A stretch of DNA of 64,000 nt, taken from assembly GCF_000026365.1 (NCBI RefSeq), contig NC_012996.1:1302001-1366000 (forward strand). Reading direction: 5' to 3'. The notes under the pieces were generated by a model. That model did not search any database and was not told the DNA's origin. It saw only the letters and a list, made by a program, of their open reading frames with translations. A program made the position numbers and the translations under genes. Shown here piece by piece: positions 550 to 25,597 of the stretch (position 1 is the first letter of the stretch; each line of letters opens with the position of its first letter). The stretch comes from Zygosaccharomyces rouxii. Lineage: Eukaryota > Ascomycota > Saccharomycetes > Saccharomycetales > Saccharomycetaceae.

Positions 550-2259
550 ATGAGTAGATGGGTAGTAGTGGTTGCAACGGTAGTGTTGTTATATTCCAGG
601 TTAGGGGTCTGTGAGATAGCAGGATTAGATCATGATCCGAGCCATATACCTGAGTTACTGTCGAATAGTTCGCATTTGCTTTCACAGTTAATCAAGGAAT
701 TTGTACTGGATCCCCATGGTAATAACTGTACTGCAAACTTAATAAGTGGCGGATCTATTAGTTTAAAAAACAGAACGTGGCCTGCGATAAGGAATTTCAC
801 TGTGAGTAACCCAAGTCTGTTTATCACCTGTTCCAACAATACTGATGGTATAAGGGACTACACAGATCTATTGAGGAAGTTTGCTATGACTGTAGGATCA
901 TTAGAAGTTATTGATGATTCTAATCATTATTTGAAGAAAGATGATTTTAAAGATAGTATATTGATGATTGCATTTACGTCATGTGCAATTTGTGTGGGGA
1001 TGTGGATGGTCTACTTGGTGTTACTTTTCCAAAGGTGTCCACAACATGCAGGTAGAAGATTTTTGCTTATGGTATATGTGGTATTTGCAGCGATCTATGA
1101 GAGTATTAATTTAAACATGGCGGTACAAAAAATTTTCAAGAAACAGTATAGTGGTAATTATCAAGATTCTTCGGAATACCAGATGACAATAATTGAATCT
1201 CAAGGATACCGTGTGGGTGAAGTAATTACCAATGCCTTGGCATGTTTAAACTGGATTTCCATAATTTACTACATGTTTCAAAATTGTAATAGGATTGATA
1301 GGAGTTGGTTACCAAACATGATATCAAATAGAAATAGAATAATTATTTGGGTTGGTTTATCGCTTACAATATTGGAAGAATTAATTTTTGCCCTTTTGCT
1401 GTGGTATCGATGGAATACTGGGTTGCGTGTAACATACATGTTGTTAGAATTGTGCTTTTATTCGCTTTTCTGTGGGTTAACATGTTATTTTGTCTATCAC
1501 GATTTTGGATTTACATTATCGCCAAGGAAACTTACTACTAATAATAAGAGTAGAATAAGACAAATTTGGAAAAGTCTTTGGAATGATTACCATCAAATTT
1601 TACCGCTTTTGATTTACAATTTATCCATGTTCGGCCTTTTGTTCTTTACTAGGATTTATCTCAGCATCACAGTTACTGCTGGTCACCAATGGAAATATAA
1701 AGTTATTAAGTTTTTCAAAATTGTCATTACAGTTAGCGTTTGGGGATTAGTTACGGTTTTAGAAAAAAGAGATTCGATTGTCAGTAAAGAGACTGTTTTA
1801 GGTAGAAAGATTAAAAATTCAGATCGTTTCTTTTATGATGTCGACATGGTTAAAACTGATTTAAAGGGTGAGTCATCAACGATGAATTCGAGTGATTATG
1901 GTTGTGATATAACTCCAGAATCAAGTTCATGCGGTAATAGTAGTGGTGCCGATGATAAATCTAATTCCTCAGAAATGGAAAATAGTTGGCAATTGTTGAG
2001 ATTCAAACTCCCGACAAAGGCATGGGAATCACAATTGAAAAAATCCAAAAGGCGTAGGAAAGCAATTCAACGCACTCGTCAAAAATTTCTAAATATATTG
2101 GCAGGTACCAATAAACATGAAAGAAAAGAGAGTTCCAGAATTTTTAAACACGCTGTATCTATTGGAGAAGAAGGATCAGGAACCCCTGATGATACAAGTG
2201 TAGAGACTGAATTGGCAACGAACTATATATACGATCTGCAGGATAATAACGGAGTTTAG
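550..2259 (+). CDS. DFG16: Alkaline-pH sensor of the Rim101 pathway, DFG16
   Basis: This 569-residue PalH/Rim21-family membrane protein acts at the plasma membrane. With Rim21 it senses external alkaline pH and signals through Rim8 and ESCRT to processing of Rim101. The layout fits the family: signal peptide (about residues 1-22), a short lumenal/extracellular domain with several Asn-X-Ser/Thr sites and the motif NNCTANLISGG, about seven membrane segments starting near residue 137, then a basic and serine-rich cytosolic tail. The tail begins with VLEKRDSIVSKETVLGRKI and ends with ETELATNYIY, both close to Dfg16 rather than Rim21. The first in-frame ATG is at 550; the frame is open a few codons further upstream only from a TTG. 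Synteny with HMS1 matches S. cerevisiae YOR030W-YOR032C. The metallothionein gene CRS5, which lies between them there, was not found. Confidence 0.93.
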   Translation: MSRWVVVVATVVLLYSRLGVCEIAGLDHDPSHIPELLSNSSHLLSQLIKEFVLDPHGNNCTANLISGGSISLKNRTWPAIRNFTVSNPSLFITCSNNTDGIRDYTDLLRKFAMTVGSLEVIDDSNHYLKKDDFKDSILMIAFTSCAICVGMWMVYLVLLFQRCPQHAGRRFLLMVYVVFAAIYESINLNMAVQKIFKKQYSGNYQDSSEYQMTIIESQGYRVGEVITNALACLNWISIIYYMFQNCNRIDRSWLPNMISNRNRIIIWVGLSLTILEELIFALLLWYRWNTGLRVTYMLLELCFYSLFCGLTCYFVYHDFGFTLSPRKLTTNNKSRIRQIWKSLWNDYHQILPLLIYNLSMFGLLFFTRIYLSITVTAGHQWKYKVIKFFKIVITVSVWGLVTVLEKRDSIVSKETVLGRKIKNSDRFFYDVDMVKTDLKGESSTMNSSDYGCDITPESSSCGNSSGADDKSNSSEMENSWQLLRFKLPTKAWESQLKKSKRRRKAIQRTRQKFLNILAGTNKHERKESSRIFKHAVSIGEEGSGTPDDTSVETELATNYIYDLQDNNGV

Positions 2260-3398: not shown

Positions 3399-5786
3399 AT
3401 GGTTCAAAGTCGTCATATTAGCATGGCAGCCCTAGCCGTGTACGGTTTACTCTGCTCATTGGCAGTTGGTAAAAATACTGTTTCATTTGATGAATACAAG
3501 GATTCTGACGGTAAAGTACGTCGTACCTTGAGTCCTGACACTGTTGAGTTGGATACAAGAGATAAAAGTGGGGCTGAAAAAGCTCATGAAGGTCTATCCA
3601 TCGTTAATGATATTTTCCACAAGCGTGATGCCGAAGCTGATGCAAATTTGTTGAACACTTTGGAAGACATTTATACCCGTGAGGATGGTTTGGATAAAGC
3701 TAATGAAGTTTTGCATGATATCTTCAAGCGTGAAGACAAGGCTGAGGAAGCAGGCTCTATCCTACATGACATCTTCCACAAACGTGATGCAAACATCTTT
3801 GGTGATGCTGCAAAGCAAGACTTACAAACTTTGGGAAAGATCTACAAGAGAGATGCCAAGGATGGTGCTGAAAAGGCCGATGAAGTGTTGCATGACATTT
3901 TCAAGAGGGACGCTAAGGATGGCGCAGAAAAAGCCGGTGAAGTCTTACATGACATTTTCAAGAGAGATGCTAAGGATGGTGCAGAAAAGGCTGGTGAAGT
4001 TTTGCATGATATCTTTCACAAGAGAGACGCCAAGGACAGTGCAGAGAAGGCCGACGAAGTTTTAAAGGGCATTTTCAAGCGTGAAGACAAGGCTCAAGAG
4101 GCTGGTTCTATTTTGCATGATATCTTTCACAAGAGAGACGCCAAGGATGGCGCAGAAAAGGCCAGTGAGGTTCTGCATGATATCTTCAAGCGTGAAGACA
4201 AGGCTGAGGAAGCAGGTTCTATTCTACATGACATTTTCCATAAGCGTGATGCAAACATTTTTGGTGATGCCGCAAAGCAAGACTTACAAACTTTGGGAAA
4301 GATCTACAAGAGGGATGCTAAGGATGGCGCAGAAAAGGCCGGTGAAGTCTTGCATGACATCTTCCATAAGAGAGATGCCAAGGATGGCGTTGAAAAGGCC
4401 GATGAAGTGTTACATGACATTTTCAAGAGGGACGCTAAGGACGGTGCAGAAAAGGCTGGTGAAGTTTTACATGACATTTTCAAGAGAGATGCTAAGGATG
4501 GTGCAGAAAAGGCTGGTGAAGTTTTGCATGATATCTTTCATAAGAGGGACGCCAAGGACAGTGCAGAGAAGGCCGACGAAGTTCTAAAGGGCATTTTCAA
4601 GCGTGAAGACAAGGCTCAAGAGGCTGGTTCTATTTTGCATGACATCTTCCACAAGAGAGATGCTAAGGATAGTGCTGAAAAAGCCGGTGAAGTCTTGCAT
4701 GACATCTTCCATAAGAGAGATGCCAAGGATGGCGTTGAAAAGGCCGATGAAGTGTTACATGACATTTTCAAGAGGGACGCTAAGGACGGTGCAGAAAAGG
4801 CTGGTGAAGTTTTACATGACATTTTCAAGAGAGATGCTAAGGATGGTGCAGAAAAGGCTGGTGAAGTTTTGCATGATATCTTTCATAAGAGGGACGCCAA
4901 GGACAGTGCAGAAAAGGCCGACGAAGTTCTAAAGGGCATTTTCAAGCGTGAAGACAAGGCTCAAGAGGCTGGTTCTATTTTGCATGACATCTTCCACAAG
5001 AGAGATGCTAAGGATAGTGCTGAAAAGGCCAGTGAGGTTTTGCATGATATCTTCAAGCGTGAAGACAAGGCTGAGGAAGCGGGCTCTATTCTGCATGACA
5101 TTTTCCACAAGCGTGATGCAAACATCTTTGGTGATGCTGCAAAGCAAGATTTACAAACTTTGGGAAAGATCTATAAGAGGGATGCGAGTTCTCCCCAACA
5201 AGCGAGTTTTGATATAAAGGAGAACTTTAGATCCATGGATTTGGATTCTGTTTTTAATTTGCTAAATGATGTTGATCTTTTCTACAGCTATGTGAGAGAA
5301 GATGTCCCATTTGTTAACCAACTAGCTGATACTAACCAAGATGTGATCATCATTGCTCCTACTAATGAGGCAATTGCTCAGTTAGATAAGAAGCCTTGGG
5401 AATTTCCTCGTAACATTGAGGCCTTAGAACAGGCGGGTTCTAGCGAGGAGGAAATTGATGCCGCTATTCAAGGAAACATTCTCGATTTTGTTAGATCCCA
5501 TGTGATCCTCTCTGACAATAGTAGCTCCTATTCTAAGGAGGAAAGTGAAGATACTTCCTTTCCTCGTTATGTGAAATATACTCGTAGTGTGGCTATGGAA
5601 AATCAAAATGCAGGCAACGATAACGTTACAGTTGCCCTTGATGACATTTTGATCAAAAACGACTATGGTTCTTTCTCTGTTGCTTCATTAAAGGACAGGG
5701 AATTTCACGATGTCAAGAGTGTGGAAATGGGCGTTAACGGTGTTGTTCTAATCGTTGACTCTTGTTTAGCTTGGCCAGATTTCTAA
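3399..5786 (+). CDS. Secreted precursor with 26 Kex2-type repeat segments and a C-terminal FAS1 domain
   Basis: The product has 795 residues. The start is the first in-frame ATG (3399, context AAACAATGG); a further upstream frame opens only at TTG. Residues 1-24 form a signal peptide. Residues 77-594 are 26 consecutive segments, each ending in Lys-Arg, and residues 595-795 form a single fasciclin (FAS1) domain with the motif VIIIAPTNEA. Most segments read DAKDGAEKAGEVLHDIF or a close variant, followed by KR or HKR. Two other classes occur: EDKAxEAGSILHDIFHKR (six copies) and DANIFGDAAKQDLQTLGKIY-KR (three). KR is the Kex2 site. The Asp-Ala that usually follows resembles the dipeptides removed from alpha-factor by Ste13. 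The FAS1 part and the EXG2 neighbour suggest orthology to S. cerevisiae YDR262W, an unstudied vacuolar FAS1 protein, but the repeats go beyond what I recall of that gene. Processing and peptide activity are inference. Confidence 0.85.
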   Translation: MVQSRHISMAALAVYGLLCSLAVGKNTVSFDEYKDSDGKVRRTLSPDTVELDTRDKSGAEKAHEGLSIVNDIFHKRDAEADANLLNTLEDIYTREDGLDKANEVLHDIFKREDKAEEAGSILHDIFHKRDANIFGDAAKQDLQTLGKIYKRDAKDGAEKADEVLHDIFKRDAKDGAEKAGEVLHDIFKRDAKDGAEKAGEVLHDIFHKRDAKDSAEKADEVLKGIFKREDKAQEAGSILHDIFHKRDAKDGAEKASEVLHDIFKREDKAEEAGSILHDIFHKRDANIFGDAAKQDLQTLGKIYKRDAKDGAEKAGEVLHDIFHKRDAKDGVEKADEVLHDIFKRDAKDGAEKAGEVLHDIFKRDAKDGAEKAGEVLHDIFHKRDAKDSAEKADEVLKGIFKREDKAQEAGSILHDIFHKRDAKDSAEKAGEVLHDIFHKRDAKDGVEKADEVLHDIFKRDAKDGAEKAGEVLHDIFKRDAKDGAEKAGEVLHDIFHKRDAKDSAEKADEVLKGIFKREDKAQEAGSILHDIFHKRDAKDSAEKASEVLHDIFKREDKAEEAGSILHDIFHKRDANIFGDAAKQDLQTLGKIYKRDASSPQQASFDIKENFRSMDLDSVFNLLNDVDLFYSYVREDVPFVNQLADTNQDVIIIAPTNEAIAQLDKKPWEFPRNIEALEQAGSSEEEIDAAIQGNILDFVRSHVILSDNSSSYSKEESEDTSFPRYVKYTRSVAMENQNAGNDNVTVALDDILIKNDYGSFSVASLKDREFHDVKSVEMGVNGVVLIVDSCLAWPDF
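3627..5180 (+). repeat. Tandem array of 26 Kex2-bounded coding repeats
   Basis: The array is 1554 bp (518 codons) and stays in frame throughout. Segment lengths are 18, 19, 20 or 22 codons, with a longer 35-codon first segment. By class there are 13 LHDIF-type A segments, 3 variants with LKGIF, 6 EDKA-type B, 3 DANIF-type C, and the divergent first. These lengths add up exactly to 518. Codons differ between copies at many synonymous sites while KR, the DA/ED start and the I-F/Y end are kept, which suggests selection on the peptide. Confidence 0.95.
4314..5003 (+). repeat. Higher-order 345-bp tandem duplication inside the array
   Basis: Two adjacent blocks, 4314-4658 and 4659-5003, each hold six segments in the same class order (A, A with DGVEKAD, A, A with HKR, LKGIF variant, B), 115 codons per block. 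They are nearly identical in DNA, so one is probably a recent unequal-crossover copy of the other. Confidence 0.9.
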
Positions 5787-6361: not shown

Positions 6362-8980
6362 TTAACACACTACCTCTTCATTCACGTGATTTATTTCCCC
6401 TGGTTGTTCTTGTTCATCTTCTGAAACGTCAAACTCTAAATCCGTACTTCCATCACTCATATCTTCGTTCGCCAGCGACCCACAGACCAAAGCTTGGTCT
6501 ATACAATAATCAATCAATCTTGATCTAACCTCAAATCCAAGAGCGTTACCGCTTTCACGTCCTAACCAGATTCGCAATTCCTTATACAGTGATTCCAAAA
6601 CGGTAAGTTCTCCTTTGAAAAAATCCAAATTCTGCATAATATCATTAACCATCAAAAACAATGCTGTGAAACTTACAAAAGATAATTCTTTGGAATCCAG
6701 CTGGTTTAAATGGTGCAATGGTTTATTTTGTAACCATGTAGTGCATTGTGAGAATTTCTCATTGGCGATAAAATATCTCATTACTGAACTGTAAAGAACT
6801 AACTGCTCTTCCAAAGAATGTTCTGAAGGCGATTCGTTATTTATCTTTACCAGTTTCAATAGTTTTTCGCATGCACTTCTAGTAGGTCTGATCAAACAGT
6901 TGATTACTTCATGATCCTCTGGCATTGACTGCAACAATTTACTTTCAGCAACATGGTTGTCACAAAATTTGATAGCTATTTGTTGTCTGGTATCATTATT
7001 TGTTGATCCAGAGCTTGAAATTTGATCTAAAAATTCTCTTAGAAGTGACTCCTTTGTATCGTTTAAAATGAATGTGTTTATCAATGATAGGAATTCTTTG
7101 AATTCGTATTCGTGACGCGTAGAAGATAGATGGTTTAAAAGTTTTTCGTTATTCAAAGTCAAATTCATTTGACTAGTGGAAACATTTGTGATCATTTCCC
7201 ATTCTAAACCTGAGCTTAAAGTACCTTGACTCTTTTGATTAGCTTTGACCACTTGATCCTTAATTTCTTGCCATTTATTCTGCACATATCTCCCACTCAT
7301 ATAACTCCATGGCAATTTAGAATCTTTGAAATATAAAGTTAATGCGAAGCATCCAGCAATTTTAGATTCAATTCTTTCCATAGAATTGTGTTTATATTTC
7401 AGTTTGTTCAATACCAGTGTTTTTTTCAAGGTTTCTTTCAAATGATCTTCGTTATCAAACGCTACTGTATCTTTATAAGGGACGGTTGAAATGGTGTCAT
7501 TATGAATATCCTGTTTTTTAGATTTACTCGAATTTGAGAAGAAAAAGCACCTGGTCAAATGAACAAATGTTGCCAATACGAGGATTATTTTTAGAAGAGC
7601 AAAGATGGAAGCCTGTAGGTTAACCACACCGTTTGAATTGGAAACGACAAATCCTGTCTTTGGTGAAAAATGGAAAATTGGCATAGCGAATAGGGCTCTT
7701 GCCGATCCCATTTCACCACCGTCACCACCAAAAGCTTGAGCACCCATAGAAACACCAAAACAACCCATGAGCAATTTCGAAGTAAAATCACCATTATTGT
7801 TATCATCTTCCTCCACAGATTGTGGATCAAATTCTGACGAAGATTGAAAGTCGTTAGTACTGCTGGTGGTAGTAGCGGCGGTAGCAGTACCGTCGGTACT
7901 AATACCATTGGCAGCGGATGAAGAAGTTGGTATTGTGCTATACATCGGAGAGCCAAATTGCCCGAAACCTGCACCCATTGCAGATTCGACTGTTTGTCTC
8001 GAACTTGACTGTGGCTGCTGACGCTGTTGTTGCTGCTGCTGTTGTTGTTGTGGCAAAGAATGTGAGCGTGTGCTTTGCGGTGTTGGAATATTATTCTTTA
8101 GCATTTTATTTTCATTCATGTAATTATCACATTTGTTTTCCAAATACGTTATGTATTCGATTGTTTTCATAAGGATGGAGGCCTTGTTTAATTTACGAGC
8201 TGGTTGCAACCCGTCTAGATCAGCTAAATCCTTAGAAACAACAGGAATACCAGCATGACGTTTATAAGCAACACGTAAAGCGGGGACAATCGCTCGAAGT
8301 TGGAAGATTTTATCATTAATATTCGTTCTGTATTTCTTCTCAATAACATTGTGTGAAGTTTTTTCCTTCCTCTTCTTGATGACTTTACCACTTTTCGTAG
8401 TAATTTTAGAAAATTCTTCAGTTGATGGTGTCTCATCTAGATTAAATCCAAATTCATCTTTTACCAAATCGTCAGACTCACCATCAACATCACCGTCACC
8501 ATCAATACTGCCAACACCGCCATTATTTGACTTATTATCATCTGTTCCAGAACTTAGCTTTGGTGAAAATTCTGACTTCACATATCCATTATTGGGCCTC
8601 CCAAGCGCAAATGCGTCGTCACCTTGGGATTGCTGCTGTGGTTTTTCAAAACCGTTCACATCAAAAATAGAATTTCTTGAGAAATTCTGCTGCTGCGGTT
8701 GCTGCAATTGTTGAGGTTGCTGCTGAAACTGAAACGACATGTTCGCACTGCTAGGATCTTCATAGAACGAATGGTACGATTCAGGTGTCAGCGACATTGG
8801 CTCAAATTGATTAGAAGGTCCTCTATCCTTCGGCGATGGACCCTGACTATTTTCGAAATTTCCGGGAAGCTTATCAACTTCAGAGACCGAATTAGAACCA
8901 GAGCCAAACAGCATAAACGGATCTCCTGAATTTGAATCACCACCTTGCAGAGCTTGTAAAAACACGTCTGCCTCGTTCAT
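6362..8980 (-). CDS. HMS1: bHLH transcription factor HMS1, long SREBP-like form
   Basis: This 872-residue protein is a basic helix-loop-helix factor. The basic region and helix 1 (about residues 203-232) contain NVIEKKYRTNINDKI, with the tyrosine that marks SREBP-type bHLH proteins. After a longer loop, helix 2 (about 263-285) includes LNKASILMKTIEYI. The N-terminus is acidic and rich in Gln and Ser. A Gln run and a Ser/Thr-rich spacer follow the bHLH. Residues 401-418 (LLMGCFGVSMGAQAF) and 456-480 (SIFALLKIILVLATFVHL) are hydrophobic and separated by about 40 residues, like the membrane hairpin of fungal Sre1 proteins. About 390 further residues follow. S. cerevisiae Hms1, linked to pseudohyphal growth, is about half this length. 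Synteny with DFG16 supports HMS1. The membrane hairpin is inferred from hydrophobicity. Confidence 0.88.
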   Translation of the reverse strand: MNEADVFLQALQGGDSNSGDPFMLFGSGSNSVSEVDKLPGNFENSQGPSPKDRGPSNQFEPMSLTPESYHSFYEDPSSANMSFQFQQQPQQLQQPQQQNFSRNSIFDVNGFEKPQQQSQGDDAFALGRPNNGYVKSEFSPKLSSGTDDNKSNNGGVGSIDGDGDVDGESDDLVKDEFGFNLDETPSTEEFSKITTKSGKVIKKRKEKTSHNVIEKKYRTNINDKIFQLRAIVPALRVAYKRHAGIPVVSKDLADLDGLQPARKLNKASILMKTIEYITYLENKCDNYMNENKMLKNNIPTPQSTRSHSLPQQQQQQQQQRQQPQSSSRQTVESAMGAGFGQFGSPMYSTIPTSSSAANGISTDGTATAATTTSSTNDFQSSSEFDPQSVEEDDNNNGDFTSKLLMGCFGVSMGAQAFGGDGGEMGSARALFAMPIFHFSPKTGFVVSNSNGVVNLQASIFALLKIILVLATFVHLTRCFFFSNSSKSKKQDIHNDTISTVPYKDTVAFDNEDHLKETLKKTLVLNKLKYKHNSMERIESKIAGCFALTLYFKDSKLPWSYMSGRYVQNKWQEIKDQVVKANQKSQGTLSSGLEWEMITNVSTSQMNLTLNNEKLLNHLSSTRHEYEFKEFLSLINTFILNDTKESLLREFLDQISSSGSTNNDTRQQIAIKFCDNHVAESKLLQSMPEDHEVINCLIRPTRSACEKLLKLVKINNESPSEHSLEEQLVLYSSVMRYFIANEKFSQCTTWLQNKPLHHLNQLDSKELSFVSFTALFLMVNDIMQNLDFFKGELTVLESLYKELRIWLGRESGNALGFEVRSRLIDYCIDQALVCGSLANEDMSDGSTDLEFDVSEDEQEQPGEINHVNEEVVC

Positions 8981-9974: not shown

Positions 9975-11048
9975 ATGGTCCGTAGTTTTAGCATCAAAGT
10001 CCCCGCATCCTCTGCCAACATTGGTCCAGGTTACGACGTCTTAGGTATTGGACTATCGCTATTCTTGGAATTAGAAGTTAGTATAGATCCAAAGGCAGCA
10101 AAAGATACCAACGATGATCCAAATAATTGTAAATTGAGCTATACTGAAAACAGTGCTGGTTTTGAAACCGTCCCTTTGAAAAGTGACGCAAATTTAATCA
10201 CTAGAACTGCACTATACGTTTTGCGTTGTAATGATATCAGAAATTTCCCATCAGGTACAAAGATAAAAGTTCACAATCCAATCCCATTAGGTCGTGGATT
10301 AGGTTCTTCAGGTGCCGCCGTAGTGGCAGGTGTTCTACTCGGTAACGAAGTTGGTCAATTGGGATTTACCAAAAGTAGAATGTTAGATTACTGTCTGATG
10401 ATTGAGCGTCATCCTGACAATATCACAGCTGCCATGATGGGTGGATTCTGCGGATCATTCCTACGTGATTTAACTCCTCAAGAGGTGGAAAGAAGAGAAA
10501 TTCCACTAGCAGAAGTTCTGCCCGAACCAAGCGGTGGCGAAGATACCGGCCTAGTACCACCACTACCACCAACCGACATTGGCAGACACGTTAAATACAA
10601 CTGGAATCCCAAGATTAAATGCATTGCAATTATACCCAGATTCGAATTATCTACAGCAGACTCAAGAGGCGTTCTACCAAAGGCTTACACTACCCAGGAT
10701 GTGGTTTTCAACTTACAAAGGTTGGCCGTTCTCACAACTGCATTGACTCTGGATCCACCAAGTGCTCCTTTAATCTACCCTGCAATGCAAGATAGAGTAC
10801 ACCAACCTTACAGAAAAACTTTGGTTCCGGGTCTTACTGAGATCTTGTCAAGTTTGACTCCATCTACTTTCCCTGGATTGTTAGGTATCTGTCTTTCAGG
10901 TGCTGGTCCAACCATCTTGGCTCTAGCGACTGAAAATTTCGAAGATATTGCTCAAGAGATTATCAACAGATTTGCCAAGAAGAATGTCGAATGTTCATGG
11001 AAATTGTTAGAGTTGGCCTATGAAGGTGCCACTGTAGAACATTTGTAG
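9975..11048 (+). CDS. THR1: Homoserine kinase THR1
   Basis: This 357-residue cytosolic enzyme phosphorylates homoserine to O-phosphohomoserine, the step before threonine synthase. It belongs to the GHMP kinase superfamily. The N-terminal block SIKVPASSANIGPGYDVLG and the ATP-binding loop PLGRGLGSSGAAVVAG (about residues 107-122) are clear. A C-terminal glycine-rich GICLSGAGPTIL motif matches GHMP motif 3. The length equals the S. cerevisiae enzyme. VMA16 follows on the same strand, the same order as YHR025W-YHR026W. Confidence 0.97.
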   Translation: MVRSFSIKVPASSANIGPGYDVLGIGLSLFLELEVSIDPKAAKDTNDDPNNCKLSYTENSAGFETVPLKSDANLITRTALYVLRCNDIRNFPSGTKIKVHNPIPLGRGLGSSGAAVVAGVLLGNEVGQLGFTKSRMLDYCLMIERHPDNITAAMMGGFCGSFLRDLTPQEVERREIPLAEVLPEPSGGEDTGLVPPLPPTDIGRHVKYNWNPKIKCIAIIPRFELSTADSRGVLPKAYTTQDVVFNLQRLAVLTTALTLDPPSAPLIYPAMQDRVHQPYRKTLVPGLTEILSSLTPSTFPGLLGICLSGAGPTILALATENFEDIAQEIINRFAKKNVECSWKLLELAYEGATVEHL

Positions 11049-11159
11049 AGTTACGATAAAAATGTGATAGACTAGTTGCCATCGATCTGTATACAGTTTG
11101 AATAAATGTACTATCAATCAGCGTTATCACCTTCTTGTACTTGCGATACTCGTTCCGAG

Positions 11160-11166
11160 TTACCCG
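11160..11166 (+). promoter_or_regulatory. Reb1-type site TTACCCG upstream of VMA16
   Basis: The exact core lies between the THR1 stop and the VMA16 start, about 150 bp upstream of VMA16. A role in separating the two tandem genes is plausible but is a motif-only inference. Confidence 0.45.
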
Positions 11167-11312
11167 GGCGCACTAAGCTTGAACAAGATACAGTTGCCCT
11201 ATAGTTCGAACCTAAGACTTGATTAAACTTATGAGCCCTCAGGGAACCGCATATTCGATAGACTGATCAAGGGCTCAAGAGCGTACATTCGAATTCAATT
11301 GAAAATTTCACC

Positions 11313-11966
11313 ATGTCTACTTTTAATAAGGAGATGCAATCTGAACCCATTCTACCCCCTGCATCCAGTCTGGCTCGTGGTTTTGTTCGTTATACCCTAG
11401 TTACAGTAATTGCGGCCTATGTACTTTACAAGCTGTTTAAAGGCCAGGGTACCGATATTAATTTCGGTAAATTTCTATTGAGGACTTCACCATATATGTG
11501 GGCTAATTTAGGTATTGGTTCGTGTATAGGTCTTTCGGTCGTAGGGGCAGCATGGGGGATTTTAATTACTGGTTCATCAATGATCGGTGCCGGTGTTAGG
11601 GCACCAAGGATTACTACCAAGAATTTAATTTCAATTATCTTCTGTGAGGTTGTCGCCATCTATGGGTTGATTACTGCGATCGTTTTTTCATCTAAATTAA
11701 CATTGGCAAAACCTGAAAATTTATATTCAAAATCAAATCTTTTCACCGGTTATTCCATCTTTTGGGCTGGTATTACCATTGGTGTTTCTAACTTGATCTG
11801 CGGTGTTTCAGTAGGTATTACAGGTTCTACAGCAGCTATATCTGATGCTGCAGATTCATCGCTTTTCGTCAAGATCCTTGTGATTGAAATCTTTGGGTCT
11901 CTACTGGGTCTATTGGGTTTAATCGTTGGTCTACTAATGGCTACAAAGGCAGCAGAGTTTCAATAA
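11313..11966 (+). CDS. VMA16: V-ATPase proteolipid subunit c'' (VMA16)
   Basis: This 217-residue multi-pass membrane protein belongs to the Vo proton ring of the vacuolar H+-ATPase. It carries two proteolipid repeats: glycine-rich helices near residues 65-95 ([18 protein letters not shown]) and near 150-170 ([16 protein letters not shown]). The first repeat is followed by the proton-carrying glutamate in [12 protein letters not shown] (E112), the second by [15 protein letters not shown]. An additional N-terminal hydrophobic segment at about residues 26-40 is typical of c''. Length is close to the S. cerevisiae protein (about 213). Confidence 0.96.
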
Positions 11967-12014
11967 GAGTTAAAAAAGATGTATAGAGAAAGTAACGTGT
12001 ATAAATACCGCCAT

Positions 12015-12041
12015 CACACACACACACATATATATATATAT
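12015..12041. repeat. (CA)n(TA)n microsatellite
   Basis: A CA run passes into a TA run between the convergent genes VMA16 and RPN1. TAA/ACT trinucleotide-rich sequence follows to about 12094. The 221-bp gap holds nothing else recognisable. Confidence 0.9.
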
Positions 12042-12187
12042 CGCCTAGACGATAATAATAATAACGATACTACTAATAATAATAAAATAATAATATGAGT
12101 GAAATTCCAAGGCTTTATTTAAAAATTTTAAATTTACATAGTCTACAAAAACAGAACTCTCTTTTTTTAGTGCCTCATTATCTGTTT

Positions 12188-15154
12188 TTAGCTAGCTTCT
12201 TCCTTTTCATAATCTGGATTTTTCCTTAGAATGACCACACCTTCTATGTTGTTTGTATAACTGATGTATTCGTCAGTTTCCAATTCTGCCCTTTCACCAT
12301 GGTTCAATAGAACAGGAGTTGATTGTGTAATCCAACCAGTAATGGTCTTTGGTTTACCTGCTTGTCCCACAGTGTCAACAGCTTGTCCGACCCGCACATT
12401 AACCTTAATTGGCTCACCTTCTTCATTCAATGTAAGGATGAATTTAGGCCTTACTGCGCTATGCAACATGAAAAATAGTTGATGGTTCTTCAACATGAAA
12501 CTTGGTGAGACCAAACCTACTAAAACGGTCATTAAAGAGGCAAGTGTAACCTTGTTCATAACATGGGCATCATTGAACATATCTAGAGTCATTGTACCTT
12601 TTCCTAGATGTACGAGACCTTGAGCCATTCTAGTAATAAACAATGCATCTTGTTCACGAGAGTAATAACTTGCCAATTGTCTCAAAAGTTGTGCTAATCT
12701 GGCGTTATTGGTACCTGCACCACATAGACCCATTGCATAGATAGAATTCATAGAAACATTGAGATCAGCATCATGAGAAAAACGAGATAAAGTATCAAAA
12801 ACCTTCATTTGAGGATCTGCTACAGAAACTAGACCCATGGCTAATGGGACCATAGAGCGGACGTGTTCATTACCGTAATGCATTAGATGACCGAAATGAC
12901 GTAGAGACATCTCTTTACCGATATCCTCACCTAGAGCAATCATGGCAATACCCAAAACAGCATAAGAAAGTTCATCTACCATGACAGCTTCTTTCTCTTC
13001 GCTGTCTTCCTTACCTTCTTCATTGTCTTCCTTACTTTCTTCACCATTCTCACTACCATTTGCCTGCTGTTCTTTCTTCTCATTTGTCGTACCGCTATTA
13101 CCTTCTTCTTGAGAATCCACATCGATTTGTTCATCACCTCCTTCATTACCTGCGTTCTCTTCGGAATTTTGCTTGGATAAAACGTCACTAATAGCATTTA
13201 AAGAACCTTCTACATCTCCAGCTTCATCTCCAGCTTCATCTTCCTCCTCGTCATCATCTTCACGAACTGGCTTAGGGGCCAAGCGATGCAACAAGTCTTG
13301 AATTAACAAGACGTCACCGGTACCTGCATACGCGCAAGCGCTCACCAGCACTTCTATGGCAGAAGTCATTGGGTGTTCGATGGCACTTACGGTTTCAAGG
13401 ACATCATCCACTTGTTCACCTTGACCCATGTAAATGATACCTAAAGCTAAGGTCAAGAACCTAACCCATTCAGTTTTGAGTTCAACACCCGATCTTTCCA
13501 AAAAGTTATCCATGATAGCTGCCGTTATGTCACCATTGCAAGTACCGACGAAGACATGGGATAATGCCAAAGATGCAATTGCAGATATTTCTATCGACAG
13601 AGATGTATCAGCAGCAACAGGCAACAAAAGGCCTAGAACTTCTTCATTTTTACTGCCTGCAAATGCAATACCTAACCCAAGAATGGCTGCAGAACTAATC
13701 TTGGAGTTAGGATTAGACACATAGTCTTGAAGCAAAAGCAATGCAGGTTCCACCTCACCATCATGAACACCACAAGCTGAAATACCTATCCCGAGAAGGG
13801 CACCTGCCTTCACTTCTGTTTCTTCCACATACAGGTATTTATCCAATTGTTGTAGCCCATCCAAGTTCCACTGAAAAATGGAACCAATGGATGCCACTGC
13901 AGAAGTCATACCATCGCCCTTAGTCTTGTAAATCCAGTTATCGTTATCGAGCAACATCTTATCATTACAGTACCCCATGTTCAGATAACTATTAACAAAT
14001 GCCGCGGCCAAATTTTGTTGTGCAGAGTCTAAACCCGTACCAGAAAATACAGATTTAGAACTATCCAAATGGCTCTTGTAAACATCCTCAGGTACTTTGG
14101 GTACGGTCAAATTCAATTCTTTAGCCAGGTATAGGAAATGCTCTGATAACTTCGTGTTTCCAATGATCTCTTTAACCGGTTCGTATTCGAAGGCAGTTTT
14201 CTGGAATGATAGGATGTAAGCCAATTGCTTGTGTACAACTGGATCAGAGGTAGCTTCAAAAACAGCCCTCACAAGCGATTCATCACCTAATCTAATAGCC
14301 AAAGAAAGCGCTTCTGTTAATTGAGATTCGGATAGATAGATAGAATAAGCTGTCTGTAAGAAAGACACATCTTCTGGTTGTGGCAATAATGGTACACATG
14401 CAACCATGTATTGGCAAACTCTTTCATAAGTGTTTTCATCCACGAATTGAGGTAACTTTTCAATAGATTCAATCTCTAGTAACAAATCAACTGCATCGGC
14501 CTCACCATTGTGCTTTAAGAAATATGGAACAATTTCTAGTGACAACTGTAGGATGACCTCTTTAGAAAATTCAAAACCTTCAGATTTCACAGTAGAATTC
14601 TCTTGCAACTCACCAGGAGGTGCCTTCCCTGAACCTTCTCTTTCAACTTGATCATTATAGACTTCACCAATTTCTAATGCCAAATGACGGATATATTCAT
14701 GACCCCAACTTACAATGTTCAAATTCTCACATAATATGGCAAATTTCAAAGAATCATGTTTATTATTTTCAGAGTAGGTCATTGCTAAAACAGACAGCAC
14801 TTCTGCTAATGAGGATTTCAACTCCCTGCTGCTCCATTTGTCGTATATGGCACACATTTCAGTATAGTATGGGCGTAGAAATTTTAATGGTTTAGGCACA
14901 GCTGTCATTGAACTTGTGGAGCTCTTAATGAATTCTTTCAATTTATCCAAGGAAGGACCATAAAGATTAGCATCGTCCTCTTTCAGCCTTTCCACTAAAA
15001 CCTCTAAATCAGACTTCAATTTCAGATCTTCTTCAGATAACTGTTCTTCCTCATCTTCCTTACTCGTCTGCTTTTTCTTATTCTTCTGTTCCTTTGCAGG
15101 TTGTTGGGTAACCTCCTTAGACTCTTCCTTAGTCTTATCAACTTTATCAACCAT
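12188..15154 (-). CDS. RPN1: 26S proteasome regulatory subunit RPN1
   Basis: This 988-residue base subunit of the 19S particle is a scaffold that receives ubiquitin-like shuttle factors and Ubp6. Eight to ten PC repeats with alternating small residues are visible, for example [12 protein letters not shown] and [11 protein letters not shown] in the centre, and [15 protein letters not shown] and [12 protein letters not shown] after an acidic, Glu-rich insert at about residues 625-720. The N-terminal 40 residues are Lys/Glu-rich. The first ATG is at 15154 (MVDKVDK); three codons further upstream open only from GTG. Length matches S. cerevisiae Rpn1 (993). A proteasome-type PACE element lies about 95 bp upstream. 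Confidence 0.97.
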
Positions 15155-15247
15155 GATTGCCACCTATATAGAGCTTTAATTCTCCAGTGTAGCGCTCTTG
15201 TTTGATTATGTAGTGGATTAATGTCCCTTCAAATACTTCCTTATCCT

Positions 15248-15256
15248 TTTGCCACC
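15248..15256 (-). promoter_or_regulatory. PACE element (Rpn4 site) for RPN1
   Basis: TTTGCCACC on the plus strand is the exact reverse of GGTGGCAAA, the proteasome-associated control element bound by Rpn4. It lies 94 bp upstream of the RPN1 start, the usual place in yeast proteasome genes. Confidence 0.85.
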
Positions 15257-15300
15257 GAAAGTTCGGTCGCTTTTAACGGGCATCGGCGTCAGCGTCAGTA

Positions 15301-15335
15301 AATCAAAATCCAAAATCAAAATCAAAATCAAAATA
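15301..15335. repeat. (AAAATC)n short tandem repeat
   Basis: About five AAAATC units lie in the 312-bp gap between RPN1 and DAP2, with a shorter GAAAT repeat at 15430-15446. Apart from the PACE site and these repeats the gap shows nothing. Confidence 0.8.
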
Positions 15336-15466
15336 ATATTAAATAAGATAAAAATTATAGAGTCTATAAAGATTTTCGATTATAATTTTATTATACCCAT
15401 AAGCCCATTAAAAATACAGAATATCGAAGTGAAATGAAATGAAATGATTAATTCCAACGAACTTGC

Positions 15467-17899
15467 TTAGTTCAGGTATACGTTTTTTGTCCAGTTCAAA
15501 ATCTTGTCCCAGACAATTTTGTTGGCATTATGGTATCTGATACCATGATCAGAATCGGGGAAAACGTGAACGTCGTAATTTTCTACACTGTTTAGATTCA
15601 GCAGGTCTAAAACTTTTAAGGAATTTTGGAAATGAACATTATCATCACCTGTACCATGCATTAACAAAAATCTTTTGGCCTGTGCAATGGCCGTCACATT
15701 ATGAACACTAGATTGTTCATATCCATTTTGGTTTTGTTGCGGAGTATGCATATATCTTTCTGTGTAAACCGAATCGTAAAATCCCCAATCGGTAACTGGT
15801 GCTACAGAAATACCGTATTTGAAATGAACACCAGCATCCTTTTCTAATGTCTTTAAAGTCAAATATCCACCGTATGACCATCCAAATAATGATATTTTGT
15901 TAGCGTCAACGTAGTGCTTGCTACTGTAAAGAGCAGCAGCTGCGATTTGATCCTGTGCTTCGTAGTCGCCTAATTTATCACGAACCACTGATCTAAACTC
16001 CTTTCCCTTGAAGCCAGTGCCACGTCCATCGACAATCACTATGATAGCATTCAATTGAGACGCAAAGACTTCTAAGAAACTCACTGAATAAGTTTGCAAA
16101 ACTTGTTGTGAATTGGGTCCACCATAGGCATAAAAAAACACCGGATAATAATTTTTCCTGTTGGCCCTAAAACCATTAGGTAAAATTTCCAGCGCATTCA
16201 CAATCACACCATTTGGTAGAGTCAATTCTTTAAATTGTTTGCGTGGGATAGCATATTTACAAAGTTCATCAGAAAGCTTCTCATTTTTAGTCAAATAAAA
16301 CAATGTTTTACCTCTAATGTTGCCCTTTTTGTCAGCATCTGGTTGGTTTGATTTCAAATCCACAATCTTTTGGAAAGGTATACTTGGACCCCTATAGGAG
16401 ATTAAAACAAATCTGCTACCCGATGAGAATGAAGCTGTATAAACAGCATTTTCAGATGTGTCCGTTATTTCAACAATCTCCTCCGGTTGCTTTAAATTTA
16501 CAGAGTAAAGATGTCTCTGAGTGGAAGATTCCTTTGTGGCAATGAAGTAAACATCGTTAGTTTCATGATCAAATGCGAATGGACCGTCTTCAATTTCCCA
16601 TTCACCCCTTGTAAGCGCAATTGGGGATGAAGATCCAACAGAATCAAAATAAACAAGATGATTAAATCCATCTATTGGTAGAACGTCCAAATACCCATCA
16701 CTATTTCTACCGTTGGAATCGTCACGTGGAATATGTAATGTGTTGTGAGTAATCTCCCACCAACCACCATTAGAAGAATCCTCTCGCACAATCTTCGAAT
16801 TTTGAGTCACTGCATTTACCAGATAAACTTTCAAAACATCGGATGAACGGTCACTACTCTTGACAAGCAATTGGTCATCACCAACCCATTTGGCCTCCGT
16901 GAGCAATTCTGGCGAACCTTCTAAACCAATCGGTGAAGTCTTATCCTTCTTTGCATCATATATGACAACATCAGCTACTGGATTAGGCGTACCGCTTTTT
17001 GGATACTTGATGGATCTCAATTCAGAATACACATCTTCAGGGTTTTGCACGTAATATGGAATCACAAATTCATTAACGAAAGTTTCGTTAATCTTGAAAA
17101 AAGCCAAATAATCACCTTGTGGAGACCACCATAACGTTCTATCGGTTTCCATAATTTCCTCTTCATAAACCCAATCCGGCTTACCATTGAATACTTGAGT
17201 ACTACCATCATGAGTAATTCTACTGACAGTTTTGGATTCTTCTGTAGAGTAGAGATACAAATCGTTATCCTTAACATAAGCAATATCCACAGAATTAGGT
17301 GACCATTCCGCCAATGCTAAATTATCACCAATGCGGTCAATACCGGTAACATTGTTGTAAACGAAATAAGACCCAAAACTTGAATGCCTCCAATTGTGTA
17401 CAGTACTAGTTCTAATGAGCAGTTGCTCTAAGTTTGGCGATGCTACCAATGAATCTACACTGTGATTGGCACCCTTGTATTGAAAACTCTTACCCTCCCA
17501 CAATATCTTGCTGTAATCTTCATCAAACACAGATCTAACTTCGTAATTATCATTTTCTGTAGTGAGAAATAACCCCTTATCATCTTCAGTGGACCCAGTT
17601 GTGTGGATCCATTGCAATGCTTTGAGTTCTGGTACAAAAGTACCGTTTCTCAAATTATCAAATGATACCTTAATCTTACCGTCTTTAGTGAATTGAGATT
17701 TAGGTAACCGATATACATCAGGATTACTAGCTTTATAATTGATATGGAATCCTAACCCAAACGTGGTTACTGGTAATACAACGAAAACAAGCAACAAAGC
17801 ATATCTCAGAAGTGCTGTTCTTATTCTACCCTTACCGTTTCTATTTTTTCTCGCAGATGATTCTATAAGATAATGGTTGGATTTCTCTATGTCTTCCAT
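15467..17899 (-). CDS. DAP2: Vacuolar dipeptidyl aminopeptidase B (DAP2)
   Basis: This 810-residue type II membrane protein is a serine peptidase of the DPP4 family. It removes X-Pro and X-Ala dipeptides in the vacuole. A short basic cytosolic N-terminus (residues 1-32) is followed by one membrane anchor near 33-51, a beta-propeller domain, and an alpha/beta-hydrolase domain. The nucleophile lies in GWSYGG, the aspartate in HGTGDDNVHF and the histidine in PDSDHGIRYH. The start is the first ATG at 17899; upstream the frame opens only from TTG. Synteny with RPN1 and SLT2 (YHR027C-YHR030C) points to DAP2 rather than its Golgi paralogue STE13. YHI9, which separates DAP2 and SLT2 in S. cerevisiae, is absent here. 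Confidence 0.93.
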   Translation of the reverse strand: MEDIEKSNHYLIESSARKNRNGKGRIRTALLRYALLLVFVVLPVTTFGLGFHINYKASNPDVYRLPKSQFTKDGKIKVSFDNLRNGTFVPELKALQWIHTTGSTEDDKGLFLTTENDNYEVRSVFDEDYSKILWEGKSFQYKGANHSVDSLVASPNLEQLLIRTSTVHNWRHSSFGSYFVYNNVTGIDRIGDNLALAEWSPNSVDIAYVKDNDLYLYSTEESKTVSRITHDGSTQVFNGKPDWVYEEEIMETDRTLWWSPQGDYLAFFKINETFVNEFVIPYYVQNPEDVYSELRSIKYPKSGTPNPVADVVIYDAKKDKTSPIGLEGSPELLTEAKWVGDDQLLVKSSDRSSDVLKVYLVNAVTQNSKIVREDSSNGGWWEITHNTLHIPRDDSNGRNSDGYLDVLPIDGFNHLVYFDSVGSSSPIALTRGEWEIEDGPFAFDHETNDVYFIATKESSTQRHLYSVNLKQPEEIVEITDTSENAVYTASFSSGSRFVLISYRGPSIPFQKIVDLKSNQPDADKKGNIRGKTLFYLTKNEKLSDELCKYAIPRKQFKELTLPNGVIVNALEILPNGFRANRKNYYPVFFYAYGGPNSQQVLQTYSVSFLEVFASQLNAIIVIVDGRGTGFKGKEFRSVVRDKLGDYEAQDQIAAAALYSSKHYVDANKISLFGWSYGGYLTLKTLEKDAGVHFKYGISVAPVTDWGFYDSVYTERYMHTPQQNQNGYEQSSVHNVTAIAQAKRFLLMHGTGDDNVHFQNSLKVLDLLNLNSVENYDVHVFPDSDHGIRYHNANKIVWDKILNWTKNVYLN

Positions 17900-24229: not shown

Positions 24230-25597
24230 TTAAGCCTTTGCCTTTTTGGCCTTTGGTGCAGAACTAGATTCTTGTTCCTTATTTTCTTGGTCTTCCTCTT
24301 CATCTGGTTGGGATCTCTTAAGCTTGTGGCGGAAGATAGATTTTAATTCTTCAGGATTAGCAACTTCTGCCAATGCGCTGTCAAATTGAGATAGAGTAAC
24401 TTTAACACCATCAATTTCAATTTCTTTGAATGGTTCAGATTCACTCTTCTCCTTTTTCAATTCATCCTTACCCTTTGCTATTTCATCAATAACATCTTGG
24501 TTATAATATAGCGGTATAGCTGGTGAGTCTGTAGACTTGATGAAAACTGATCTAATTGAGTATTTCTCCTTTAGTTGTCCAATGATGGATTCAGCGTTAT
24601 CAGCCAATTCTTCAGTGGATAACCAGTCAAAGTGACCTAGATGTACATTCATTGTAGTACCACGAGGTAAAATTACAGGTAATTTACTTTGGTAGATTTT
24701 TTCGAATTTGTTCTTAATGGTTTTCAAGGACAACTCACCGTTTAAATGAGTCTTGATAGGAATTGGTGTTGTCTCCAACTTATTGTATGCCTTACCACCC
24801 AAAAGTTTTGGTAAAGTAGTAATAACGCTATCATCTGCTAAAATTAGTGAAAATTCTGACAAGAAAGCTCTTCTCGCTTCATATGCTTTATGAACGGTTT
24901 TCAATTCCTTGGCAGCAATGATCTCTAATTCTGGTGTATCCTGCAAACCTTCCACAACTTGTTCAGCTTCAATGCTACCGGCATCTGAATCTTTCAAGAT
25001 CAAAAGAATCTTGAAATCCTTAACCATGGTAACACTTGCCTTCTTCCATGCTGCAAACAAAGAATGCTTAATATCAAGCAATTTTGGTTTGAAGTCTTTT
25101 TTAGTACCGGTAAATGAAGTATTGTTAACGGCTATCAATTGAATATATTTGCCCAATTCTTCGTCACCACCAAGCAAATTATTCTCATCACCACCTTCGT
25201 TCTTTCTTTCTTCATATTTCTTTAGTTGTTCTAAGGCATGAACAATTCTAGACTTGAAGTTCTGCTCCTTAGAGGCAACTTTAGAGGCCTTTGGAGATCC
25301 TTTTGGAGAAGCCTTTGGAGATCCTTTTGGAGAAGACTTAGGAGCAGTCTTTGGAGAAGACTTTGGAGCAGCCTTTGGAGAACCCTTTGGCGATGCCTTT
25401 GGAGCAGCCTTAGGAGAGGCCTTTGGAGCAGTCTTTGGAGATGCCTTTGGAGATGCCTTTGGAGATGTCTTCTCAGAGGACTTGGCAGGTGCAGTCTTCG
25501 GTGAAGCTTTAGCCCCTGTCTTTTCCTTAGATGTTACCTTGGTGGGAGTACCCACAGGTGTAGACTTTTGAGATGTTGAACGACTCTTCTTACCCAT
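24230..25597 (-). CDS. CIC1: 60S ribosome assembly factor CIC1 (NSA3) with long S-P-K tail
   Basis: This 455-residue nucleolar protein has a ribosomal protein L1-like fold. Cic1 binds the foot of the pre-60S particle near ITS2. The L1-like domain spans about residues 110-400, with blocks close to S. cerevisiae Cic1: YIQLIAVNNTSFTGTKK, LLILKDSDAG, SLILADDSVITTLPKLLGGK and LPRGTTMNVHLG. The N-terminal 110 residues carry about 20 short units of the type KASPK, TAPK or GSPK, which makes this protein about 80 residues longer than S. cerevisiae Cic1. The C-terminus is acidic then Lys-rich. ELF1 is divergent; the shared promoter has three overlapping PAC motifs. Confidence 0.95.
   Translation of the reverse strand: MGKKSRSTSQKSTPVGTPTKVTSKEKTGAKASPKTAPAKSSEKTSPKASPKASPKTAPKASPKAAPKASPKGSPKAAPKSSPKTAPKSSPKGSPKASPKGSPKASKVASKEQNFKSRIVHALEQLKKYEERKNEGGDENNLLGGDEELGKYIQLIAVNNTSFTGTKKDFKPKLLDIKHSLFAAWKKASVTMVKDFKILLILKDSDAGSIEAEQVVEGLQDTPELEIIAAKELKTVHKAYEARRAFLSEFSLILADDSVITTLPKLLGGKAYNKLETTPIPIKTHLNGELSLKTIKNKFEKIYQSKLPVILPRGTTMNVHLGHFDWLSTEELADNAESIIGQLKEKYSIRSVFIKSTDSPAIPLYYNQDVIDEIAKGKDELKKEKSESEPFKEIEIDGVKVTLSQFDSALAEVANPEELKSIFRHKLKRSQPDEEEDQENKEQESSSAPKAKKAKA

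Follow-up and report, generated by a model that had tools for sequence, protein, structure and literature searches.

A Candidate Kex2-Processed Repeat Protein with a FAS1-Like C-Terminus in Zygosaccharomyces rouxii, Apparently Expanded from a Two-Unit Propeptide

Introduction

Two surveys define Kex2-processed repeat proteins (KEPs) by a minimum of three tandem repeats of 8–100 residues between Kex2 sites and by repeats that account for 15% or more of the sequence (Le Marquer 2019, PMC6339444; Umemura 2020, PMC7329392). KEPs occur widely, and for the most part it is not known how they arose or what they do. The later survey gives 2,560 of 7,878 KEPs as lacking a homologue (PMC7329392), and the earlier one names Zygosaccharomyces rouxii, Wallemia, and Wickerhamomyces anomalus, which are osmo- or xerotolerant, among the top KEP producers (PMC6339444). 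Here we analyze a 64,000-nucleotide stretch of the Z. rouxii genome (NC_012996.1, positions 1,302,001–1,366,000, forward strand; hereafter the window), which contains a gene for a 795-residue protein with a long array of repeats closed by Lys-Arg (KR), hereafter the array gene. A first-pass annotation of this DNA had placed such a precursor beside alpha-factor, Ustilago Rep1, and Candida Ece1 and knew of no version with a FAS1 domain in this family of yeasts. With the two surveys the class is already known, and the array gene belongs to it by its repeat layout. We read the gene product, at a probability of roughly 0.6, as a KEP with a FAS1-like C-terminus, in which a two-unit propeptide was expanded into an array of 26 segments.

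Results

Repeat Array and Cleavage Sites

The protein contains 27 KR sites, the first and last of which bound 26 segments, one of 35 residues and the others of 18–22. Asp-Ala opens 20 of the 26 segments and Glu-Asp the other six. All these numbers were recounted and agree with the first-pass annotation. The array thus comprises, by our own count, 26 segments of 18–35 residues with 12 distinct sequences among them, and its share of the protein, taken as 18 × 26 / 795, is 59%, compared with the 15% threshold for KEPs. Type A segments (n = 16) read DAKDGAEKAGEVLHDIF(H)KR with variants, in the form DAK..IF-KR or IFH-KR; type B segments (n = 6) are EDKAEEAGSILHDIFHKR and EDKAQE..., in the form EDK..IFH-KR; and type C segments (n = 3) are DANIFGDAAKQDLQTLGKIYKR, in the form DANIF..IY-KR. 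The two residues ahead of KR are IF 12 times, FH 12 times, and IY three times, and all 27 sites are followed by D or E at P1′. The earlier statement that KR is kept in every copy is too strong, as one unit junction is TR: YTR at residues 92–94 divides the 35-residue segment into units of 18 and 17 residues. This TR is probably a KR whose lysine was lost.

Such a number of sites is far above that given by composition, as shuffling of residues 25–594 yielded 4.4 KR on average and 13 at most in 10,000 trials versus the 27 observed. The KR density was 3.4 per 100 residues; of the 25 open reading frames (ORFs) in the window with 250 residues or more, the array gene included, the runner-up reached 0.76. 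The last 201 residues contain no KR, RR, or RK and a single KK, which stands before proline. The most hydrophobic 13-mer of the protein begins at residue 11, and KN right after the hydrophobic start is common to this protein and three relatives in the alignment described below; on this hydropathy and the shared KN, the N-terminus is predicted to be a signal peptide.

The processing enzymes were searched for in the genome (9.76 Mb, 7 contigs). It encodes one proprotein convertase, a Kex2 homologue with a P domain and with subtilisin-type motifs. Three S10 carboxypeptidases were also found, one of which is a long Kex1-like form with a hydrophobic C-terminal stretch, together with two Ste13/Dap2-type dipeptidyl aminopeptidases (the second being L009). 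In Bader 2008, acidic and small residues are over-represented at P1′ and P2′ of cleaved Kex2 sites (PMC2515848). Judging from the sites and the enzyme genes, Kex2 would very probably cleave the array, and the Kex2-type layout claimed in the first pass, which follows the plan of alpha-factor with other peptides, was borne out.

An alpha-factor precursor is encoded separately in this genome (L010; G000:C7:667321-667848, minus strand), with 187 residues and eight copies of HFIELDPGQPMF, one being HFVELDPGQPMF. Its spacers are KR-DADA and KR-EAEA. Asp-Ala after KR therefore occurs as an alpha-factor spacer in Z. rouxii, in agreement with the proposal that the Asp-Ala starts of the array are Ste13-type spacers. 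The alpha-factor-like plan and the DA spacers could also mark the array gene itself as a mating pheromone precursor; since the eight-copy gene exists, however, the array gene is hardly the pheromone, and the array protein gave no MF_alpha match in Pfam at E up to 0.1, which leaves this explanation scarcely credible. A genome search with PF05436 matched nothing, including the known alpha-factor gene and the control.

Constraint and Peptide Properties

Among the 16 A units, the ratio of replacement to silent differences (pN/pS) was 0.094 at a pS of 0.66, and the five core hydrophobic columns tested showed zero replacements. The KR columns contribute 55 replacement steps to this count though their residues are identical, because the codon paths from AGR to CGT traverse other residues; the Arg of KR is encoded by AGA at 10, AGG at 7, and CGT at 10 of the 27 sites. 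Two neighboring 345-bp blocks of the array share 98.6% identity, and a pair of 348-bp blocks shares 94.3%. With copying this recent, the 26 copies cannot be counted as that many separate events. We interpret these data as selection on the peptides and the KR sites, with the reservation that some of the array stems from recent copying.

Helical amphipathy was detected at a shuffle p < 0.03 in 11 of 14 unit types; the exceptions were the N-terminal unit and both sequences of type B, with p = 0.08 and 0.095 for the latter. The previous description of the peptides as amphipathic therefore stands for most unit types and not for those of type B. The net charge is 0 to −4 for all 14 unit cores. This combination of charge and amphipathy is more in keeping with candidate surface-active or protective peptides than with killers of the cationic kind. 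Many copies of mostly amphipathic 15–18mers might otherwise be expected of antagonistic peptides acting on competing microbes, the competition role raised in the first pass, but the usual membrane-active peptides are cationic, and with no positively charged core among the 14 such a function appears very unlikely.

Relatives and Origin of the Array

A homology search with the whole protein gave no match among 8,000 scored candidates, being those that share the most words, and residues 595–795 searched under the whole-protein length limits gave none among 862 candidates. When the domain alone (201 aa) was used as the query, five homologues of 42–60% identity were obtained. Two of them (P0001 and P0002) are on contigs of 1.1–1.3 kb; their sequences start at or inside the domain and carry no information on units, and they were left out of the counts of three below. 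The full-length relatives (P0003–P0005) consist of 290–309 residues with mutual identities of 65–72%. All three share one plan, which is new in this analysis: a hydrophobic, signal-like start, KN, a stretch with RRFSS, two KR-closed segments starting with DA or DP (DAKRLP(I/L)..LFKR and DPKRLPLDIN..KR), and then the same domain. Residues 1–129 of the array protein align with these relatives, the RRFSS stretch included, at E of 3e-6 to 1.5e-4 (BLASTP on five sequences, with filters and composition correction off).

All three full-length relatives keep RR, DAKR, LFKR, DPKR, and the final KR, and the residues ahead of this final site differ in each of them (QEESLL, EEQRIA, and NEKHE). This is the opposite of the pattern, helices kept and KR sites lost, that the first-pass annotation had named as contrary to its proposal. 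The units of the array gene have in common with those of the relatives only the D-A or D-P start and a mostly hydrophobic residue before KR, and they lack the KRLP core seen in those relatives. Within the C-terminal domain, an extra RR was seen in P0003 (residue 250, DILLRRDGD) and an extra KR in P0005 (residue 269, DILLKRQGD), either of which may be buried or may mark an additional cut. Searches of the genome in which the best candidates were scored found no paralogue elsewhere; one weak match on contig C2 (L005) is ascribed to chance and resembles a cullin by sequence. Kinship with Pichia Epx1 was suspected and then dropped, as a literature search gave no support.

We read these sequences as one gene family, in which the putative propeptide of some yeasts holds two KR-closed units and that of the array gene at least 26. 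It is probable that the array is an expansion of an ancestral two-unit propeptide, and the direction is taken as expansion rather than loss because two units are common to the three relatives. This apparent expansion, in a gene at the position of YDR262W, was overlooked in the first-pass annotation.

The same relatives bear on the explanation that the array is an enlarged propeptide only, serving as a folding helper, a spacer, or a vacuolar sorting segment, which Kex2 removes so that the peptides are degraded by-products. The relatives carry a two-unit version with a conserved KRLP core in the propeptide position, and the YDR262W product is described as vacuolar (PMC2500033). That core is, however, missing in the array gene, a 13-fold copying would be needless, and five unchanged hydrophobic columns in the A units would not be expected at such a pS; we consider this explanation doubtful. 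A further alternative is that the uncut protein acts whole, as a long helical rod that is located at the wall or vacuole and carries a FAS1-like head. The amphipathy of 11 of the 14 unit types as helices and a domain able to serve as an adhesion head would accord with a rod, but it is hard to reconcile with a secretory-start protein bearing 27 sites of the type preferred by Kex2, with relatives in which the sites and not the unit sequence are conserved, and with unit lengths of 17–22 residues, which break the helical phase so that a single one is not maintained. This makes the rod quite improbable.

C-Terminal Domain

The C-terminus alone matched the Pfam Fasciclin model (PF02469) with 17.5 bits and E of 0.005, which is under the curated cut-off of 22 bits, and the same model was the top Pfam match in 5 of 5 relatives, at 16.5–20.2 bits against that cut-off. 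The FAS1 domain named in the first pass was thus retained as a FAS1-like end and not as a full Pfam assignment. A low-confidence structure model of the domain points in the same direction, its nearest listed folds being mostly FAS1. Fasciclin was unlisted for the whole protein at E up to 0.1, and searching the genome with this model (E up to 1) gave two places on another contig, the array gene being unlisted. When the family was compared by hhalign with the two FAS1 domains of the YLR001C-type protein of this genome, using single sequences as templates, the probabilities were 0.4 and 0.2%. The sole fasciclin gene found above the Pfam cut-off in the genome (L002 and L003; G000:C2:786104-788200, an 824-residue frame) is presumably YLR001C/Fsc1-like. 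Fission yeast Fsc1 is located on the vacuole membrane (PMC3738441).

Nine Pfam matches to the whole protein, three of them above the cut-off (TFCD_C, DUF5132, and MCR_beta), were rejected as repeat composition because all lie within the repeats and no stretch passes alone. A PDB sequence search with the whole protein gave no match. Five PDB matches at E of 0.04–8.8 were set aside as designed proteins, judging by their names, and a PDB search with a profile gave one match in the propeptide columns, which was taken as chance.

Locus and Synteny

The coordinates are collected in Table 1. The gene order is ClpB/HSP78 (−), Hsp20 (+), Apc13/SWM1 (−), GH5/EXG2 (−), PalH (+), the array gene (+), and bHLH/HMS1 (−), and that of S. 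cerevisiae is HSP78, YAP6, SWM1, EXG2, YDR262W, and DIN7. Because the order of HSP78, SWM1, and EXG2 on the left flank matches, the array gene is placed at the YDR262W position; it is the positional counterpart of YDR262W. We take YDR262W to be a member of the FAS1 family. The names DFG16 and HMS1 for the neighbors were assumed from gene order, and both genes presumably derive from a duplicated partner region. The Hsp20-family gene between HSP78 and SWM1 (L017:7270-7851) sits where S. cerevisiae presumably has YAP6. EXG2 and YDR262W adjoin in S. cerevisiae (PMC3757047), and YDR262W is described in PMC2500033 as being of unknown function, with a vacuolar green fluorescent protein (GFP) fusion, induction by methyl methanesulfonate, and expression raised on zymolyase treatment.

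Table 1. Positions of the array gene, its parts, and the genes discussed with it in the 64,000-nucleotide window.
Feature	Position	Strand	Remarks
Array gene, whole ORF	3399-5786	+	795 aa, without internal stop
Predicted signal peptide, residues 1-24	3399..3470	+	Hydropathy; KN alignment; putative cleavage near ...LAVG/KN
N-terminal spacer, residues 25-76 (RR 41-42, TR 53-54, first KR 75-76)	3471..3626	+
Opening segment of 35 residues, a pair of degenerate units joined by YTR (residues 92-94)	3627..3731	+
Other 25 KR-closed segments (16 A, 6 B, 3 C)	3732..5180	+	Tandem array also by the program TRF
C-terminal FAS1-like domain, residues 595-795, plus stop	5181..5786	+	DASSPQQ follows last KR
PalH/RIM21 family membrane protein (presumed DFG16 position)	550..2259	+	Pfam PalH, E 1.4e-70
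Basic helix-loop-helix (bHLH) protein (presumed HMS1 position)	6362..8980	−	Pfam HLH 52.6 bits; DUF2014 25.7 bits (cut-off 27)
Dipeptidyl aminopeptidase (DAP2-like), ~10 kb from array gene	15467..17899	−	Pfam DPPIV_N, Peptidase_S9

The GC content of the window is 39%. Positions 9975-17899 contain a GHMP kinase (THR1-type), a V-ATPase c-type subunit, a proteasome-subunit-like ORF, and the Ste13/Dap2-type peptidase. This order presumably matches S. cerevisiae chromosome VIII, and the presence of a dipeptidyl aminopeptidase near an X-Ala-rich precursor is therefore likely chance. It is possible that this enzyme trims X-Ala. On the minus strand at 24230-25597, a 455-aa ORF was observed that includes, at 25283-25471, 15.8 tandem copies of a 12-bp unit (AGATGCCTTTGG).

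Discussion

We propose that the precursor would enter the secretory pathway via its N-terminal signal, as hydropathy and conservation suggest. Late-Golgi Kex2 would cut after the 27 KR sites, which have acidic P1′ residues and for which the enzyme gene is present, a Kex1-type carboxypeptidase would strip K and R, and Ste13 would take off the leading Asp-Ala of 20 segments. The expected products are mostly acidic peptides of 15–18 residues, the majority amphipathic, such as KDGAEKAGEVLHDIF, EDKAEEAGSILHDIFH, and NIFGDAAKQDLQTLGKIY. Cleavage at the last KR would release the FAS1-like domain, which may then follow a separate route to the wall or vacuole. As to the origin, the relatives and the synteny point to a FAS1-like gene in the place of YDR262W, with two KR-closed units in its propeptide, that grew by duplication of such units, the direction of the change being presumed. 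The likeliest function of the peptides, suggested only tentatively, is an extracellular surface-active or coating one. That, when water activity is low, approximately 26 acidic, mostly amphipathic peptides and an adhesion-type domain from one precursor together coat and protect the wall or membrane of this osmotolerant yeast is a speculation we hold to be unlikely. The rank of Z. rouxii as a top KEP producer fits a protective role and proves nothing on the array gene.

Several points weigh against the proposal of a repeat protein processed by Kex2 and expanded from a two-unit propeptide. The units are unlike those of the full-length relatives, so that unit homology follows from position, and one of six relative units is amphipathic at a shuffle p < 0.05, which weakens a shared peptide role. 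Recent block copying, at 98.6% identity, accounts for part of the low pN. Cleavage, secretion, a separate fate of the domain, and an extracellular role of the peptides are all predictions from the sequence. A KR need not be cut: of the proteins tested in Bader 2008, two thirds were cleaved rapidly (PMC2515848). By analogy with the vacuolar YDR262W-GFP, the array products could be degraded. The gene order breaks to the right of HMS1, where a THR1-type gene and not EXO1/DIN7 follows, and to the left of HSP78, where an SNF2-type helicase gene lies. None of 11 promoter motifs was found in the 770 bp upstream, an uninformative result in that even TATA was unmatched.

If the speculation about a coat at the cell surface held, it would be a way for ordinary propeptides to give rise to peptide precursors, and such a coat of peptides plus anchor would be of a kind whose description is not known to us. 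The presumed ancestral state would still be alive in the relatives, in which the same domain stands behind two KR-closed units, under the three-repeat threshold of both surveys. Such a route from propeptide to peptide array, open to testing in a food yeast, predicts intermediate unit counts in other FAS1-like genes at this locus.

Comparison with Known Systems

The yeast alpha-factor precursors resemble the array protein in their KR sites with D/E-A spacers, as seen in the eight copies within the same genome; they differ in having unrelated peptides, whereas a longer array, a C-terminal domain, and no MF_alpha match are found here. The likeness to S. cerevisiae YDR262W consists in the same chromosomal place after EXG2. 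We know of no such C-terminal domain in Ustilago Rep1 or Candida Ece1. These two, compared by description only, are multi-peptide precursors with Kex2-released peptides, as stated in PMC9769878. To our knowledge, a plan of peptide plus folded domain has been met only once, in Coprinopsis cinerea 365456 with its GH128 domain. In Vogt 2022, that protein has a signal, a Kex2-flanked peptide, which was detected, and a C-terminal folded domain; it differs in its single peptide without repeats and in the GH128 identity of its domain (PMC9769878).

The word fasciclin is absent from the main texts of both KEP surveys (PMC6339444, PMC7329392), and a search that did not cover the supplementary tables, where the array gene is probably listed, turned up no KEP described as having a domain of the FAS1-like kind. 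The KEPs of these surveys resemble the array protein in having at least three repeats between KR sites, a motif class of 9–24 residues, and an XA dipeptide after KR, and their secretory start has a predicted counterpart in its N-terminus. The array gene differs from them in the FAS1-like domain that follows its array, and its two-unit relatives hint at the source from which that array arose.

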